Of a stretch of DNA of 35,670 bases, positions 7,177 through 12,837 are shown one piece after another. Each line of letters opens with the position of its first letter. Position 1 is the first letter of the stretch. The DNA comes from a virus: IMG/VR virus record IMGVR_UViG_3300042373_002386, positions 1 to 35,670 of that record; one strand, written 5' to 3'. Under the pieces are notes generated by a model, which saw only the letters and a list, made by a program, of their open reading frames with translations, was not told the origin of the DNA and made no database searches. Position numbers and translations under genes: made by a program.

Positions 7177-7794
7177 TTATTTAAAAAATTGGGTAAGGTC
7201 TGGTCTGAAGTAATTAATGTTCTTCATAACCTTGCGATCGCGTGTTCTATAGACGATAAAATACTTACCAACCTGTTCATAGTGACATGGTTCCTCTTGC
7301 TCTGCGGAGCGAACTCTAACGGTTTCTTGTGCCTCTTCTTCACTTGTACAAGCTTTGCTAAGATTTGACGCTTGAACCTCTTGATACGCGGGCCATACTT
7401 TATCCTTAAGACCATGTAACATAGCCCCGTTACCCAACGATACGTAGGTAATGTCACATAGAGCATCAAGCACTTCAACAATATTGCCTGTTTCACACGC
7501 ATGCTTATATTCTTCGAGTTCCTCCAAAATGAAATTATAGACAAACATCCACTCCTTCTCGTCGGGAATGACCGGGTCATAATTATTTGGCTTCCCCATA
7601 ACTGCATTGAACTCTTCAACTTCTGATACAAATGGCACATAGTTTTCTTTTAGATTACTAATCTCGATATTTAACCTAGACCATTCCTTAACTACATCGT
7701 CTCCAAGTTCAATTTTGGACATTAGGGAAAGATCAACTACTTGGCCTGCTAATAATGAAATTAACTCAGCTTGTTTCTTTTCTAATGGGCTCAT
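7177..7794 (-). CDS. MazG-like nucleoside triphosphate pyrophosphohydrolase
   Basis: A 205-residue protein with an all-alpha NTP-PPase core in the middle. EVEEFNAVMGKP is followed by FILEELEEYKHACE and VEVLDALCDITYV, giving the ExxE...ExxD metal-binding arrangement typical of MazG-type enzymes that hydrolyse NTPs to NMP and pyrophosphate. An AYQEVQASNLSK motif follows, as in phage and PRA-PH-like MazG proteins. The last 50 residues are a less typical extension. It starts within the folE stop (ATGA, 4 nt). Phage MazG proteins may clean nucleotide pools or lower alarmone levels; here it sits beside deazaguanine and dNTP supply genes. Confidence 0.85.
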   Translation of the reverse strand: MSPLEKKQAELISLLAGQVVDLSLMSKIELGDDVVKEWSRLNIEISNLKENYVPFVSEVEEFNAVMGKPNNYDPVIPDEKEWMFVYNFILEELEEYKHACETGNIVEVLDALCDITYVSLGNGAMLHGLKDKVWPAYQEVQASNLSKACTSEEEAQETVRVRSAEQEEPCHYEQVGKYFIVYRTRDRKVMKNINYFRPDLTQFFK

Positions 7795-8489
7795 ATCTGG
7801 TGTCCTCCGTTATTGATTTTGATTGAATCGAAGAATTCTTTACGTGCTTGATTATCATTTTCCAAGAACACACCTGATGCTTTTGTAGTTACCATTGAAG
7901 CACCTTGGTGTTTTACACCTCTACAAGATACACAGTTGTGGGTTGCTACTACAGTTACGATTACTCCTCTATTCAATTCACAAATTTTGTTTACTGCATT
8001 GTGGATTGCTGAAGTTAATTGTTCTTGGATAGCACCTCTACGACCAAATAGTTCTACAATACGGTTCAATTTAGATAAGCCGATTACTCTACCTTCGTTT
8101 CCAACTACATAACCAATATGAACTACTCCTCCAATTGTTTGGTGGTGGTGTGAACACATTGAAGTAACAGGAATATTTCGTTCGATTACAATACCATCAT
8201 AACCATCACTAGGGAATGAAGTAATATCGGACATTGCAGTATATCGACCTGCAAATAAATCAAATACATATGCTTTTGCTACACGACGTGGAGTATCAGA
8301 TGAGTTTGGATCGTTTTCCCAATCTACACCTAATGCAGTTAAGAACTTACCATAAGCTTCTTCTGCTTCATCTACCATTGCCCACTTTTCTTTCTCGGTA
8401 AGTGGAAAACCAGGTGCAACACCATTTGCAAAACCAATTTTTACACATTCTAAATCTGTGTGCTGTTTTTTACGATTGTTTTCTGACAT
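7791..8489 (-). CDS. folE: GTP cyclohydrolase I
   Basis: A 232-residue GTP cyclohydrolase I that converts GTP to 7,8-dihydroneopterin triphosphate, the entry step of folate and queuosine/preQ0 synthesis. Zinc and catalytic motifs are visible: SMCSHHHQTIGG (C112, H114, H115), GLSKLNRIVELFGRR, QEQLTSAI, and HNCVSCRGVKHQG (C186 and C189 region), ending ASMVTTKASGVF. Length is normal. With QueD, QueE, QueC and a DpdA-like protein nearby, its product almost certainly feeds 7-deazaguanine synthesis for DNA modification. It is first in a unit driven by the promoter at 8508-8538 and overlaps the MazG-like gene by 4 nt. Confidence 0.96.
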   Translation of the reverse strand: MSENNRKKQHTDLECVKIGFANGVAPGFPLTEKEKWAMVDEAEEAYGKFLTALGVDWENDPNSSDTPRRVAKAYVFDLFAGRYTAMSDITSFPSDGYDGIVIERNIPVTSMCSHHHQTIGGVVHIGYVVGNEGRVIGLSKLNRIVELFGRRGAIQEQLTSAIHNAVNKICELNRGVIVTVVATHNCVSCRGVKHQGASMVTTKASGVFLENDNQARKEFFDSIKINNGGHQI

Positions 8490-8539: not shown

Positions 8540-9034
8540 TTAAAGTGCGTAAATATAATCTAAATTTCGCTCTTTTGAATTATTATCCATTCCATAACCT
8601 ACTACCCATTGATCTTGGATCATGAAACCTGAAATATGATGATATTCTGATAAAGGGGAAGTATCTCGAGTTAATAGAGTAATCATTTGGAGTGATAAAG
8701 GGTTCAAAGCAGATAAATGCTCTAAAATTCTATTTAAAGTATTTCCAGTATCATAGAAATCATCTATTACGTATACATATTTTCCTTCAATGTTTGTTTC
8801 AATATCTTTTAAGATATGAACTACACCTTGATCTTGTCCATTGTATGATTTGGCTCGTATAAAGTCAACTTCAAAATCAATTGACATTTCTTTAGCTAAA
8901 TCACTAAAAAACATAAACCCACCATTTAATACACATATCATTACTACATCATCATCAACAGTATGTTTAAATGAAATGCGGTGGGCTAGTTCTTTAACTT
9001 TTTCTTGAATTTGCTCTGAAGTAAATAGAATCAT
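8540..9034 (-). CDS. hpt: Hypoxanthine/guanine phosphoribosyltransferase-like protein
   Basis: A 164-residue type I phosphoribosyltransferase. The PRPP loop is VYVIDDFYDTGNTL (residues 87-100), close to the HPRT consensus with adjacent acidic residues at 91-92 and DTG at 95-97. CVLNGGFMFFSDLA is the N-terminal PRPP-binding loop, and VVGYGMDNNSKERNLDYIYAL matches the HPRT C-terminal base-binding segment. HPRT joins hypoxanthine or guanine to PRPP. It lies between folE and queE, with a 4-nt overlap to queE, so it is part of the deazaguanine block. It could salvage purines for GTP, or salvage guanine displaced by base exchange (see findings). Fold confident; substrate not. Confidence 0.88.
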   Translation of the reverse strand: MILFTSEQIQEKVKELAHRISFKHTVDDDVVMICVLNGGFMFFSDLAKEMSIDFEVDFIRAKSYNGQDQGVVHILKDIETNIEGKYVYVIDDFYDTGNTLNRILEHLSALNPLSLQMITLLTRDTSPLSEYHHISGFMIQDQWVVGYGMDNNSKERNLDYIYAL

Positions 9035-9813
9035 ACTCCTCTTTTTGTATCGAATGCAATAATATGATCTCTACCTGTCATGTTGTATCCTTTTTCAGCA
9101 CACATATCAAATACAAGTGGATACATTTTAATTAATTCATCTCTTGTATCACCAGCTGGCATGATATAGGTTTTCCATTTTGGGATTTCCAATGCAACTC
9201 TAAATGCTTCAATTTCAGCTAAATTCTCTTCAGTACCATCCCAAACTGGTTTGTAATGATAATCGAAGTGATAATCGAGTGTTTGTTTGATTGTATCCAT
9301 TTTAAGACGGAACTTATTATGTTGATCAATCATTTTCTGGTCCACAATCGCTCCTTGAGGCGTAACAGCTCCAAGTACGGGAATACTATTACCAAATTTA
9401 GGACTGAGAGATATAAGAGATATAGGATAGTCAGTAGCGAGGAAATGAGAACCTTCGGTTTCAATAGTAATAAGAATACCTCTTTCATAAGCAAAATGTG
9501 TTAACTCATTTACAAGCTTAGGGTGCATTGTAGGTGAGCCACCCGTCAACATCATTTCTTTGATGTGTGGGTTTTCGTCATAAATTTTGATAATATCATT
9601 AAAGGTAAATGTACCTTTTTCTGGGTGGATACTTGTATACCAAGAATCACACCATCCGCCTTCTCCAAAGTAGCAGCGGTGAGTACAACCTGTTGTACGA
9701 ACTGCAATCGTTGGGCGTCCAAAACGAGATCCCTCGCTTTGAACGCAACGATATAATTCTACAATTGGTAAAACTTTGTTGTAATCTTCTATTCTTCCTA
9801 GACTAGATTCCAT
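9031..9813 (-). CDS. queE: 7-carboxy-7-deazaguanine synthase (radical SAM)
   Basis: A 260-residue radical SAM protein. QueE converts 6-carboxytetrahydropterin to 7-carboxy-7-deazaguanine (CDG). The N-terminal VELYRCVQSEGSRFGRPTIAVRTTG region (fragment VQSEGSRFGRPTIAVRTTG) is typical of QueE. The [4Fe-4S] cysteines are C43, C47 and C55 in GCTHRCYFGEGGWCDSW, giving Cx3Cx7C rather than the usual Cx3Cx2C. MLTGGSPTMHP is the SAM-binding GGE-like motif, and IETEGSH and SLSPKFG also match QueE. It is preceded by a thioredoxin gene overlapping by 16 nt and followed by the phosphoribosyltransferase gene. Function is well supported; the cluster spacing is unusual. Confidence 0.93.
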   Translation of the reverse strand: MESSLGRIEDYNKVLPIVELYRCVQSEGSRFGRPTIAVRTTGCTHRCYFGEGGWCDSWYTSIHPEKGTFTFNDIIKIYDENPHIKEMMLTGGSPTMHPKLVNELTHFAYERGILITIETEGSHFLATDYPISLISLSPKFGNSIPVLGAVTPQGAIVDQKMIDQHNKFRLKMDTIKQTLDYHFDYHYKPVWDGTEENLAEIEAFRVALEIPKWKTYIMPAGDTRDELIKMYPLVFDMCAEKGYNMTGRDHIIAFDTKRGV

Positions 9814-10046
9814 TTTTCTTTTACTTGTGCTTCAGTTAAAACTCCGATTGATTTGTCTGCCTCTTGACCGTCTTTCAAAAATACAAGCGTAGGTACGCTT
9901 CGAATATTGTATTGTGCAGCCATTTGAGGATTTTCATCCACGTTAATAAATTTAACAGGATGTTGTTGCCCTACACGTTCCATAACGGGTTTAAAGTTTT
10001 TACATGGCATACACCAAGGGGCAGAGAAGTATAAAATTTCTTTCAT
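9798..10046 (-). CDS. Thioredoxin-like protein, WCMPC active site
   Basis: An 82-residue minimal thioredoxin fold. The active site is SAPWCMPCKNFKP (residues 8-20), and the cis-proline motif SVPTLVFLKDG is near residues 50-60. Canonical thioredoxin has WCGPC and about 105 residues; this one lacks part of the N-terminus and has Met in place of Gly, as some phage glutaredoxin/thioredoxin hybrids do. Likely roles are reducing ribonucleotide reductase (NrdA has a C-terminal CxxC) or keeping the deazaguanine enzymes reduced. It overlaps queE by 16 nt. A weak promoter-like site with a hairpin lies just upstream (10051-10088). Confidence 0.93.
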   Translation of the reverse strand: MKEILYFSAPWCMPCKNFKPVMERVGQQHPVKFINVDENPQMAAQYNIRSVPTLVFLKDGQEADKSIGVLTEAQVKEKWNLV

Positions 10047-10103: not shown

Positions 10104-10580
10104 CTATTCTTCATAGATGCTAGAGTTTTTATCGTTTTCAAAACATTCTACTTTAATTACTTTACAACGCCCAGCATCTGTTTTAGCTAGTACTTCATTG
10201 AAATGATCAAATACAAGTTTTGCATTACTTTCAGCACCCATTTTTTCTAGGAAATGTACTTTACATAATCCTTCCATTTGCATTTGTTCAAACAAATCAC
10301 GGTATGGATCGTCTGCTTGAATTAAAGTTGTGTGATCCCACATATGGTCCATCCAAGCTTTCAAACCATTACCTTGAGGTGCAGGTTTAAAACCTCCATA
10401 ATCAACAATCCAGTTCATATCATCAAGTTGATTTTCCTCTAATGGTTCGTTTGAAGCAAACCATACTTTAAATTTCAAAGCATAACCATGCAATAACTGG
10501 CAATGTGAATGGGCTGCTTTGTATTGACGAATTGCTACTGAGTAATTGTCAAATAATTTTGTTGAAATGTATCTAGCCAT
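10104..10580 (-). CDS. queD: 6-carboxytetrahydropterin synthase-like protein
   Basis: A 158-residue member of the 6-pyruvoyltetrahydropterin synthase family. QueD turns dihydroneopterin triphosphate into 6-carboxytetrahydropterin. The zinc/catalytic region is KAAHSHCQLLHGYALKF, with H24, C27 and H31. The usual third zinc His (HGH) is Tyr33 here (HGY). DDMNWIVDYGGFK, WDHTTLI and ECFENDKNSSIYE match the remaining family motifs. I recall the LLHGYAL variant from other phage proteins of this family. It is coupled to a 59-residue gene upstream by an 8-nt overlap and is the last gene of the unit starting at 11995. Confidence 0.9.
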   Translation of the reverse strand: MARYISTKLFDNYSVAIRQYKAAHSHCQLLHGYALKFKVWFASNEPLEENQLDDMNWIVDYGGFKPAPQGNGLKAWMDHMWDHTTLIQADDPYRDLFEQMQMEGLCKVHFLEKMGAESNAKLVFDHFNEVLAKTDAGRCKVIKVECFENDKNSSIYEE

Positions 10581-10752
10581 TTTTCTTTGATGTTTTAGGT
10601 TTTCTAATTTCAGTGTCTATATTCTGTAATTCGATAGTTACGTACTCAGGAAAGAACATATTCAATCCAATTCCGGTACATATTTTAATTGTTCTTTTCT
10701 TTGCCATTAGCTTTTGATGTAGTTCCCAATTTATAATACTTTTATCCTGCAT
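10573..10752 (-). CDS. Small hypothetical protein (59 aa) between queC and queD
   Basis: A 59-residue frame fills the gap between queC and queD and overlaps both (queC by 11 nt, queD by 8 nt). It starts MQDKSIINWELHQKLMAK and ends KPKTSKKNG, so it is basic, with a hydrophobic centre (ICTGIGLNMFFPEYVTIELQ). A second ATG at 10707 would give 44 residues. The tight overlaps at both ends support real translation. No family recognised. Its position suggests a role with the deazaguanine enzymes, but nothing in the sequence shows one. Confidence 0.6.
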   Translation of the reverse strand: MQDKSIINWELHQKLMAKKRTIKICTGIGLNMFFPEYVTIELQNIDTEIRKPKTSKKNG

Positions 10753-11581
10753 GGCTTGCTAGTACTTTAGATACTTCTTTTACTACATATTCCCATGTTA
10801 CAGGTCCTTCTTCGTCTGCATAAGCTACAGGATCAGGACGTCCTAATTTAATAAAAGCTTCTACTCGCTCCACGGAACTTGCTGATTTGTAATCAGAGAA
10901 CCATTCTTTTACTTCAATGATATCGGCTCCTTCTTCATATGCCATTTCGTGGTAAATTGGTTTGTATGAAGTGTTTGTACGTTTATATACTTCATTGAAG
11001 TCTAAACCTAATTCACCACATAATACTTCTCCATCTTGTAAGATGGTAAATTTATCACCTTCAAGATATGGTGTAAAGTAACCTACTTTTTCAGAACCCC
11101 AATTACCTACTCTAAAGGCATGATCGTCTGCATCTCTAAATTCTTGACGGCAATCTGGGTAAATTGCATGATCACCTGCATGGATTCCCATTGCAATGTC
11201 ACATTGCTCATCTGTTTCGTCAGCAATTGAAAGTGCAACTGCTTGAATAATTGAAGCAAATATTTTATTTCGATTAGGAACAACTGTTGCTTTCATGTTT
11301 TCTTCAGCATAATGTCCTTCAGGTACATCATCTCCACCTGTTACAAGTGCTGAATTTAACAAATCAGATAATCCGTTTAATTGGATTTGACGGTAACGGA
11401 TAGGGGAATAGGTTTCATTAATATAATCTACTAATGATTGAGCGCGTTCAAGTTCAACTCTATGTTTTTGTCCATAATCAAATGAAAGTGCAGTTACTGT
11501 ATCGTACTCTTTCAAGCAACGAAGTAACAATGTGGAGGAATCCATCCCTCCAGATAAGGATACTACTACGTGTTTTGCCAT
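10742..11581 (-). CDS. queC: 7-cyano-7-deazaguanine (preQ0) synthase-like protein
   Basis: A 279-residue PP-loop ATPase. QueC converts CDG and ammonia to preQ0 using ATP. The PP-loop is SLSGGMDSS (residues 8-16), followed by the family motifs LSFDYGQKHRVEL, TVVPNRNKIF and IYPDCRQEF. In standard QueC the C-terminus carries four zinc-binding cysteines (TCYN...CGxCxxC). Here the matching segments are NTSYKP and YKSASSVERVEAF, and there is no cysteine after residue 188. Length is slightly above normal (about 230). It starts 16 nt inside the previous small gene. Fold and ancestry are clear; whether the product is preQ0 or another deazaguanine is open. Confidence 0.88.
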   Translation of the reverse strand: MAKHVVVSLSGGMDSSTLLLRCLKEYDTVTALSFDYGQKHRVELERAQSLVDYINETYSPIRYRQIQLNGLSDLLNSALVTGGDDVPEGHYAEENMKATVVPNRNKIFASIIQAVALSIADETDEQCDIAMGIHAGDHAIYPDCRQEFRDADDHAFRVGNWGSEKVGYFTPYLEGDKFTILQDGEVLCGELGLDFNEVYKRTNTSYKPIYHEMAYEEGADIIEVKEWFSDYKSASSVERVEAFIKLGRPDPVAYADEEGPVTWEYVVKEVSKVLASHAG

Positions 11582-12041: not shown

Positions 12042-12053
12042 ATTAGAGTCCAT
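12021..12053 (-). terminator. Terminator of the dpdA unit
   Basis: On the minus strand, an 8-bp stem (ATGGACTC/GAGTCCAT) at 12031-12053 with a 7-nt loop is followed by ATTTTATTTT (12021-12030). The dpdA stop codon lies in the loop. The next promoter begins inside the same hairpin. Confidence 0.75.
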
Positions 12054-12837
12054 TTATTTGTCTAAAGTTTATAACGTTATGTTCAATAAACTTCATTTGA
12101 GTTTCTGTGATTGGTTTATCTTGGAAATTATTCATATTAGCCGTTGGCTTTGAATCTAGCCCCATTTTTGTATATGGTATTCCTTCTATTCCAGCCATAA
12201 TTGGATTTGAAGTATCAATTGATTCAATGCAAGAAATATTTTTGTACATTCCAAATTCAATAGGACTTGCAGTTCCAAGTAAATGTACTCGATCGTTATA
12301 AAGTAATGTTTTATCATTATACATTGATGAAACTACTATATATCGTCCAATTGCTTTACCTAAATCTTTGTTTGGGTGTGGACACATTTCATGATAATAT
12401 TCTGCACCATATGAAAATGCTATTTTCTTATAACCTAAATCTTTATATATTTGCACACATTCATAAGCTTCATGAATATTTTTTGCTTGTACTACAGCTA
12501 CTTTAGTAGTGTTTTTAGGCATTTTAGTATGAGCCCAAGAACGAGCATTTACAATTGATGCTGTCTTATCTTCCCAAACATCAGGTACAATAAATTCATT
12601 TGGTTCAATTTCATTTACCCAATACATTAAACGTTCTGAATTATATGCTTCACCTAGTTCATGGAGTGAATTGTCCATTACAATGTAGCGACCCATTTTC
12701 TTTGATTCATAGAAGAAATTACGATATTCTTCATTTTCATCCATTAGATGAGGTAAACAATAATCGTAGTCATTGAATTCTCTACTTTTTTCTAAGAGGC
12801 AAAATGGTACCTCGTGGCTAATTTTTACTTTTTTCAT
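12043..12837 (-). CDS. dpdA: DpdA-like 7-deazaguanine DNA transglycosylase
   Basis: A 264-residue TIM-barrel protein of the tRNA-guanine transglycosylase superfamily. DpdA proteins swap guanine in DNA for a 7-deazaguanine. Visible motifs are YIVMDNSLHELGEA (candidate general base Asp55, as in the TGT DSGG region), FIVPDVWED (Asp86), VAVVQAKN, KKIAFSYG, VHLLGTASPIEF (185-196, matching TGT HLLG), and IESIDTSNP with Asp208 at the expected nucleophile position. It is short (TGT is about 380) and lacks the TGT zinc site, as phage DpdA proteins do. Together with FolE, QueD, QueE and QueC it completes a DNA hypermodification pathway. It overlaps the upstream gene by 4 nt (ATGA). Confidence 0.82.
   Translation of the reverse strand: MKKVKISHEVPFCLLEKSREFNDYDYCLPHLMDENEEYRNFFYESKKMGRYIVMDNSLHELGEAYNSERLMYWVNEIEPNEFIVPDVWEDKTASIVNARSWAHTKMPKNTTKVAVVQAKNIHEAYECVQIYKDLGYKKIAFSYGAEYYHEMCPHPNKDLGKAIGRYIVVSSMYNDKTLLYNDRVHLLGTASPIEFGMYKNISCIESIDTSNPIMAGIEGIPYTKMGLDSKPTANMNNFQDKPITETQMKFIEHNVINFRQINGL

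Follow-up and report, generated by a model that had tools for sequence, protein, structure and literature searches.

A phosphoribosyltransferase gene within a deazaguanine block

The window, that is, the whole stretch of 35,670 nucleotides analyzed here (IMG/VR record IMGVR_UViG_3300042373_002386), carries a gene block, all on the minus strand, in the order PRA-PH/MazG-like, FolE, HPRT, QueE, thioredoxin, QueD, QueC, two small open reading frames (ORFs) and DpdA-like. FolE, the GTP cyclohydrolase I that consumes GTP in the first step, is encoded at 7791..8489 (PF01227, 5.7e-44; phrog_2197, 1.3e-58). It is accompanied by a QueE-like radical SAM protein (CDG synthase; 9031..9813; phrog_2076, 1.4e-46), which the NCBIfam QueE models match with scores below their cut-offs, a QueD-like (PTPS) protein (10104..10580; PF01242, 7.7e-10; phrog_2389, 4.2e-30) and a QueC-like preQ0 synthase (10742..11581; PF06508, 1.1e-36; phrog_1550, 2.2e-40). 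Together, FolE, QueD, QueE and QueC form the established pathway from GTP to preQ0. A DpdA-like guanine transglycosylase, recognized by its TGT fold (Z 17.7), lies at 12043..12837, and a PRA-PH/MazG-like nucleotide pyrophosphohydrolase at 7177..7794 (PF01503, 8.7e-09). Such a pyrophosphohydrolase is the usual gene downstream of folE, or of the GPT gene described below, in the phage group of the window, and genes annotated as nucleoside triphosphate pyrophosphohydrolase occur near folE in phages immuto and phi13:1. The gene for a thioredoxin-like protein (9798..10046) overlaps queE and is kept near it in relatives; in one other locus a flavodoxin gene lies beside queE (L275:14358-14870; PF00258, 3e-20), whose product may donate electrons to the radical SAM enzyme.

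Between queE and folE, at 8540..9034 on the minus strand, an ORF with an ATG start encodes a 164 amino acid HPRT-like type I purine phosphoribosyltransferase (PRTase). The ORF shares 4 nt (9031-9034) with queE and is separated from the downstream folE by 50 nt, so that the coordinates and the family matches agree with the original prediction of an HPRT-like gene overlapping queE by 4 nt and lying directly before folE. The protein matches PF00156 at E 4e-24, with 85 bits against a gathering score of 26.3. The hypoxanthine PRTase model TIGR01203 aligns over positions 1-165 of its 167 (E 6e-43); as the score of 146.5 bits is 3.5 below the curated cut-off of 150, we file the protein as HPRT-like rather than as a proven equivalog. 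Sixty-four distinct sequences of solved structures match it at E <= 1e-3 (best E 8.7e-32), and nearly all of the 60 listed are named hypoxanthine, guanine or xanthine PRTases.

Conserved residues and selection

We aligned 42 distinct phage HPRT sequences, the window protein included, of 150-195 amino acids, with fragments dropped. Residues K62-S63-Y64, D91, D92, D95, G97, G146, G148, R156 and N157 are invariant in all 42. These include the PRPP-binding motif D91-D92-x-x-D95-x-G97 (42/42), which contains the catalytic aspartate of type I PRTases, and S63-Y64 (42/42), which we take, following the HPRT literature on its role, to be the Ser-Tyr pair of the flexible loop. Phage PRTases resemble bacterial HPRT (Hpt) and XGPRT (Gpt) in the PRTase fold, the PRPP motif and the purine pocket. 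Differences from bacterial Hpt are found at position 123, where the lysine of solved HPRTs is aligned with R in 32, K in 8 and Q in 2 of the 42 sequences, and at position 143, which is W in 38/42 and F in 4/42.

The HPRT gene is under purifying selection: when that of the window is compared with those of four relatives, pairwise dN/dS is 0.12-0.19. Corresponding values are 0.07-0.12 for queE (three relatives) and 0.07-0.15 for folE (four relatives). Given these low ratios and the invariant catalytic motifs of 42 distinct phage sequences, the PRTase ORF is not a chance one. The dS values differ among the three genes (HPRT 0.69-0.86, queE 0.69-1.02, folE 0.33-0.45), and adjacent genes may therefore differ in recombination history.

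A transglycosylase predicted from its fold

The AlphaFold2 model of the DpdA-like protein, built from 62 sequences, has a pLDDT of 94.0. Its best Foldseek matches are tRNA-guanine transglycosylases (E 9e-9), and VIA-align gives Z 17.7 to 1iq8 over 237 residues and Z 17.6 over 231 residues to 7ui4, a 'DNA preQ0 insertase DpdA'. The model has the predicted TIM-barrel fold of TGT, so that the DpdA on which the original prediction built is upheld at the level of fold, and guanine exchange would be its chemistry. D55, D86 and D208 are invariant in 62/62 DpdA-like sequences, and we take the catalytic Asp residues of TGT to be among them. Sequence searches were less informative: Pfam gave no TGT match (PF01702) for this protein, and the best match in a PDB sequence search, at E 0.0019, was a designed TIM barrel. 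PF01702 is not a useful test for phage DpdA, since it also found nothing (0/9) in nine whole phage records, several of them with annotated DpdA/tRNA-ribosyltransferase genes.

By alignment, the protein is 35% identical to one annotated as DNA guanine transglycosylase in phage immuto, and 37% identical to APL47_gp056 of Campylobacter phage CP220, annotated as hypothetical (L015:3995-4771). It thus resembles the proteins of immuto and Campylobacter phages, which reportedly belong to the DpdA3 subfamily, that of complete-replacement phages. The modeled fold of the related window protein suggests that Campylobacter phages such as CP220 have a transglycosylase. Cui et al. 2023 reportedly found one in such phages. 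A DpdA-independent route, or pool-level incorporation, is considered for Campylobacter phages in passages of Hutinet et al. 2019 (PMC6884629). By annotation or homology, a transglycosylase is present in immuto, VpKK5, MMDA13, ytsc_ply2008005c, PaMx25 and phi13:1. DpdA was not established in Brevundimonas and PA5oct-like phages, where PF01702 is uninformative and the HMM match in MIJ3 is weak (E 3e-5).

A second kind of enzyme in the same gene neighborhood

In Flavobacterium phage immuto, a 131 amino acid protein annotated 'phosphoribosyltransferase' is encoded between queE and folE, with two small ORFs separating queE from it. Judged by its sequence, this enzyme is XGPRT-like (hereafter GPT) and not an HPRT; guanine is a substrate common to both families. 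A scan of IMG/VR seeded with it gave 133 relatives, of which the best 80 were kept. At least one of folE, queE, queC, queD and DpdA is present in 77 of these 80 loci, and in the other three (L066, L070, L093) the fetched stretch starts within 200 bases upstream of the GPT gene; being seeded by the GPT protein itself, this set is not independent evidence of linkage.

Among GPT-like proteins, R34-G35-G36, D64-D65, D68, G70, T72, W100 and W105 are invariant (41/41). The phmmer alignments of immuto GPT to three solved PRTases skip about 20-28 chain residues near query positions 54-61, and neither phmmer nor an alignment read by eye, which had no XGPRT row, revealed the flexible loop of XGPRT. Phage GPT-like proteins, shorter than bacterial Gpt, therefore seem to lack the loop over the active site. 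For this reason we file them as no more than XGPRT-like, and they may not catalyze the normal reaction.

GPT genes are also found in isolates of other groups. In MIJ3, a PA5oct-like Pseudomonas phage, gpt lies directly before queE, and a Brevundimonas phage has the order folE-gpt, with a QueD-family gene in the same record. A case against close linkage is phi13:1, where about 19 kb separate folE from the PRTase, which is encoded a few genes from the ribonucleotide reductase (RNR).

Linkage of phosphoribosyltransferases to the pathway

Two sets of IMG/VR loci, with contigs in common, were analyzed: the best 80 of 428 relatives found with the window FolE, not chosen for the presence of a PRTase, and the best 80 of 130 relatives of DpdA. 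Within the fetched stretches, a PRTase is present in 62 of the best 80 folE-seeded loci (38 HPRT, 24 GPT; 18 none). It lies more than 2 kb from folE in three of the 62 (2.4, 8.0 and 9.1 kb). Eight of the 18 loci without a PRTase have a flank shorter than 3 kb. These eight include L139, which starts with part of an HPRT, and L186, which has an HPRT elsewhere on its contig. We considered as eligible those loci that hold queE plus polB or PRA-PH, which drops 18/80 loci of the folE set and 39/80 of the DpdA set. A PRTase is then found in 52/62 folE-seeded loci (29 HPRT-like, 23 GPT, 10 none) and in 32/41 DpdA-seeded loci (12 HPRT, 20 GPT, 9 none). Co-occurrence with DpdA, which the original prediction had suggested checking, is further seen in 26/32 eligible folE-seeded loci that show DpdA in the fetched stretch; DpdA itself is present in at least 33 of the 64 folE-seeded loci holding queE, a lower bound set by the limited stretches. 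When both sets are merged at 95% QueE identity, 66 clusters remain: 24 with HPRT, 32 with GPT, 9 with neither and 1 mixed.

The PRTase is nevertheless optional, missing in 10/62 and 9/41 eligible loci. Of the 18 records without a PRTase labeled near folE, 17 have no PF00156 match anywhere in the record; two of these 17, of 166 and 124 kb, have queE, queD, queC and DpdA, and several others are short. A PF00156 search of five isolates with deazaguanine genes (CP220, HVTV-1, Dp-1, MA9V-3 and BSP7) likewise gave no match, so that CP220 differs from the window here despite having the type of DpdA closest to that of the window. In Bacillus phage BSP7, the product of a gene between queE and folE (BSP7_052) was considered as a PRTase and rejected, as it matches HNH endonucleases.

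A FolE tree was calculated for 72 loci, leaving out the eight short-flank loci without a PRTase; support is weak for 22 of its 61 inner branches, and the bootstrap did not reach convergence. On the best tree, the four states (HPRT upstream, GPT upstream, GPT downstream, none) require 13 changes, compared to 30.8 on average for shuffled labels. Well-supported branches alone force, label by label, 5 changes for HPRT, 3 for GPT upstream, 6 for GPT downstream and 6 for none. Given the 13 changes, and the presence of HPRT, GPT and none within the window's own FolE clade, the PRTase slot is clustered by descent, yet has been emptied or swapped repeatedly. QueD seems, from identities, to have been swapped too: in four loci (L003, L004, L008, L010) it is 41-44% identical to that of the window (10104-10580), whereas identities of 79-97% are found for trx, queE and, in those loci that have it, queC.

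A scan of IMG/VR seeded with the window HPRT gave 11 relatives. HPRT precedes folE in 10 of them, the stretch of the other (L006) ending just after HPRT, and queE lies upstream of HPRT in 10, with large unlabeled ORFs in its place in L009. Extra ORFs separate queE, HPRT and folE in L003, L004 and L010.

Background rates were estimated by tblastn on 50,697 phage records; they are raw, seeded with proteins of these same phages, and include redundant records (RefSeq and GenBank copies). HPRT-like matches occur in 19 records and GPT-like matches (immuto GPT query) in 40, of which 36 are in groups with deazaguanine genes: 14 FolE fusions (Vibrio 7, Stenotrophomonas 3, Pseudomonas 2, Sphingomonas 2), 4 immuto, 11 PA5oct-like, 2 Brevundimonas and 5 phiST-like records, the PRTase lying away from folE in the one phiST-like record inspected. 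Two fecal contigs and two short records bearing the names of Escherichia and Salmonella phages make up the remaining four. One record each was inspected for VpKK5, MMDA13, ytsc_ply2008005c, MaInes, MIJ3, Baskent_P4_1, PaMx25, immuto and phi13:1, the others being assigned from listings. A scan with the RNR large subunit of the window, meant as a matched control, returned contigs common to the earlier scans, and we judged it to sample the same phage group.

FolE2 neighbors and fusion to FolE

In four loci (L257, L267, L275, L277), FolE was not found and FolE2 is present instead (PF02649, E 1e-69 to 2e-71); GPT overlaps it, abuts it or lies within about 160 bases of it. A FolE2-like protein was also seen by eye in the single contig that holds L244 and L077. 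FolE and FolE2 are separate families that carry out the same reaction. Since GPT is kept beside FolE2 where FolE is missing, the PRTase seems, on this gene-order evidence, to be associated with GTP cyclohydrolysis as a reaction and not with one particular gene.

Matches of immuto GPT often fall inside genes annotated as GTP cyclohydrolase. In VpKK5, MMDA13 and ytsc_ply2008005c the two domains are fused in frame, with a GPT-like domain at about 1-115 and FolE from 116-118 to 293-296. PF00156 is weak or silent on these three proteins (E 0.1, 0.01 and none). An HMM of standalone phage GPT, built without fusions before the fusion loci were fetched, scores 30-48 bits on the N-terminal domains of six loci from five distinct phages, and also matches the further fusions of PaMx25 (E 4e-11) and Baskent_P4_1 (E 5e-15). 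The AlphaFold2 model of the VpKK5 domain (pLDDT 92.1) matches XGPRT in Foldseek (E 6e-7) and gives Z 12.6 over 115 residues to E. coli XGPRT 4jls, which points to a predicted XGPRT fold; PyrR regulators and a ppGpp-bound protein are also in its fold-match list. A lack of co-occurrence between PRTase and deazaguanine genes across phages would, according to the original prediction, have refuted it. Such co-occurrence was found: PRTases adjoin FolE or FolE2, or are fused to FolE.

When the fused domain was used as a tblastn query, 43 records matched. In 33 of them the match lies at a FolE gene; the others are 4 immuto and 5 phiST-like records and 1 unannotated fecal contig. The 33 comprise Vibrio 7, Pseudomonas 17, Stenotrophomonas 3, Variovorax 2, Xanthomonas 2 and Sphingomonas 2 records; five isolates (VpKK5, MMDA13, ytsc_ply2008005c, PaMx25, Baskent_P4_1) were read and HMM-scored, the rest were assigned from tblastn, and in three unannotated records (two Variovorax, one Vibrio) the position at FolE was deduced. 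The complete fused protein matches 392 phage records, with at least 80% of its length covered in 33. In PaMx25, a continuous open frame (L366:2899-3792) encodes a 297 amino acid GPT-FolE fusion, folE being annotated with a late start; PaMx25_38, a 'hypothetical' gene before folE, was rejected as a separate GPT, its frame differing from that of the PRTase. A scan of bacterial genomes with the fused domain, by exact-pattern seeding, which is weak, gave no fusion and one standalone GPT-like match, in an alphaproteobacterial MAG.

Proposed recycling of guanine and alternative explanations

We consider that the window PRTase probably performs guanine salvage in the service of the deazaguanine DNA-modification pathway. 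DpdA would swap guanines of phage DNA for the modified base, releasing one free guanine per inserted base; such release on base exchange is established for TGT chemistry. The HPRT-like enzyme would then convert the released guanine and PRPP to GMP, host or phage kinases would raise GMP to GTP, and FolE would consume the recycled GTP for the next deazaguanine. This reading is based on the recurrent linkage of PRTases in folE- and DpdA-seeded loci; on the occurrence, in the same neighborhood, of two kinds of PRTase from families that share guanine; on GPT kept beside FolE2, the GPT-FolE fusions and the linkage in isolates of other groups; and on the invariant catalytic residues, the low dN/dS and the DpdA fold. 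The recycling of guanine to GMP and GTP for FolE, as the original prediction had it, thus gains comparative evidence from linkage, fusion and fold, from which we infer the activity, substrate, flux and benefit of the enzymatic loop. On comparative evidence alone, it is the best-supported reading of the PRTase.

The GC content of the window, 34.3%, corresponds to about 58,000 guanines per 170 kb genome, a size assumed from the 174 kb L009 contig. If most were replaced and the burst were about 100, both of which are assumed, each cell would use up and set free about 6 million guanines; the cellular GTP pool is about a million molecules, so that guanine turnover would, on these assumptions, be comparable with or above it. 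Hosts normally carry their own HPRT or XGPRT, and an additional enzyme encoded by the phage would increase capacity or evade control by the host. Since the PRTase is linked to FolE rather than to DpdA, a general supply of GTP is also compatible with the data.

A more elaborate version of recycling, which we put forward tentatively and hold to be doubtful as a whole, is a self-fueling rewrite of the genome, in which the expelled guanines feed the bases that replace them. A guanine PRTase would have been recruited several times (HPRT-like, GPT-like, GPT-FolE), and the loop-less form would work in complex with FolE, or possibly DpdA, the partner closing the active site.

One alternative is general purine salvage, the PRTase feeding GTP/dGTP pools from degraded host nucleic acid and its proximity to folE being incidental. 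Nucleotide supply matters to the window phage, which encodes ThyX (Pfam search) and RNR (genes read by eye), and the PRTase of phi13:1 lies a few genes from RNR, away from folE. However, a PRTase with such a role would not be expected to adjoin folE or FolE2 repeatedly or to be fused to FolE, and the rarity of HPRT-like matches (19/50,697) and the concentration of GPT-like ones in deazaguanine-gene groups (36 of 40) also make it unlikely.

The PRTase fold might also act as a ligand sensor that binds guanine, GMP or PRPP and regulates FolE, in the manner of a feedback-regulator protein, without catalysis. The fusion of GPT to FolE, the apparent loss of the flexible loop in GPT-like proteins, and the PyrR and ppGpp-bound entries in the fold list speak for such a sensor, but the HPRT-type proteins retain K62-S63-Y64 and the whole PRPP motif (42/42), and the GPT-like ones all ten residues from R34-G35-G36 to W105 (41/41), which makes a purely regulatory role quite improbable. 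Finally, ribosylation of a deazaguanine base, also raised in the original prediction, finds no support: D95, which we take to be the aspartate contacting purine N7 in HPRT, is invariant (42/42), 7-substituted 7-deazaguanine has no N7, and a DpdA predicted to insert the free base is present in the window and in at least 33 of 64 queE-holding folE-seeded loci. A PRTase making a nucleotide from preQ0 or CDG, carried to the dNTP and inserted by polymerase, is for these reasons highly improbable, although pool-level incorporation is proposed for Campylobacter phages in passages of PMC6884629 and a MazG-like pyrophosphohydrolase lies next door.

Relation to described systems

Phages are known to protect their DNA from restriction by deazaguanine modification. 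Like the window, DpdA phages in passages of Hutinet et al. 2019 (PMC6884629) have FolE-QueD-QueE-QueC and a transglycosylase in one block; a word search of the main text of that article gave neither 'phosphoribosyl' nor 'salvage'. Quinobequin-P09, sequenced according to the same text (PMC6884629), is among the tblastn records with a GPT-like domain at FolE. In the text available of the MMDA13 paper (PMC7472734), neither 'phosphoribosyl' nor 'fusion' was found. The deazaguanine system of PA5oct and, at a different point, other PRTases are mentioned in a review on jumbo phages (passages of PMC7824862), and the sole use of 'phosphoribosyltransferase' in the passages covered of PMC11309003, PMC11097641 and PMC9025141 is for a nicotinamide or nicotinate enzyme. 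Within the literature searched, which did not extend to Cui et al. 2023, we found no description of a PRTase recycling loop in the deazaguanine pathway, in agreement, for that literature, with the remark in the original prediction of not having seen such a loop described. The pattern comprises HPRT-like and GPT-like PRTases, FolE and FolE2 as GTP cyclohydrolases, and fusions, and goes well beyond that prediction.

If the recycling reading is true, it explains how replacing a large share of its guanines could be affordable for a phage, and gives a function to PRTase genes and fused 'FolE' genes in cultured phages. The GPT-FolE fusion protein is a directly testable object, and the predictions apply to isolated phages: Quinobequin-P09, PaMx25, VpKK5 and immuto.

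Immuto (MW353176 and three further records) has the gene order of the window: queE, PRTase, folE, NTP pyrophosphohydrolase, DpdA. Unlike the window, its PRTase, annotated only as phosphoribosyltransferase, is GPT-like, QueC is not annotated in the stretch, and PurN-like and QueF genes are present. The PurN-like formyltransferase and a nucleotide-kinase-like AAA_28 protein are encoded close to DpdA (L013:12370-12897; L013:12900-13424), and in CP220 an AAA_28 protein similar to that of immuto directly follows the DpdA relative (L015:4813-5355). In the window itself, positions 996-2931 encode what look like GroEL and GroES, as judged by eye from the translations.
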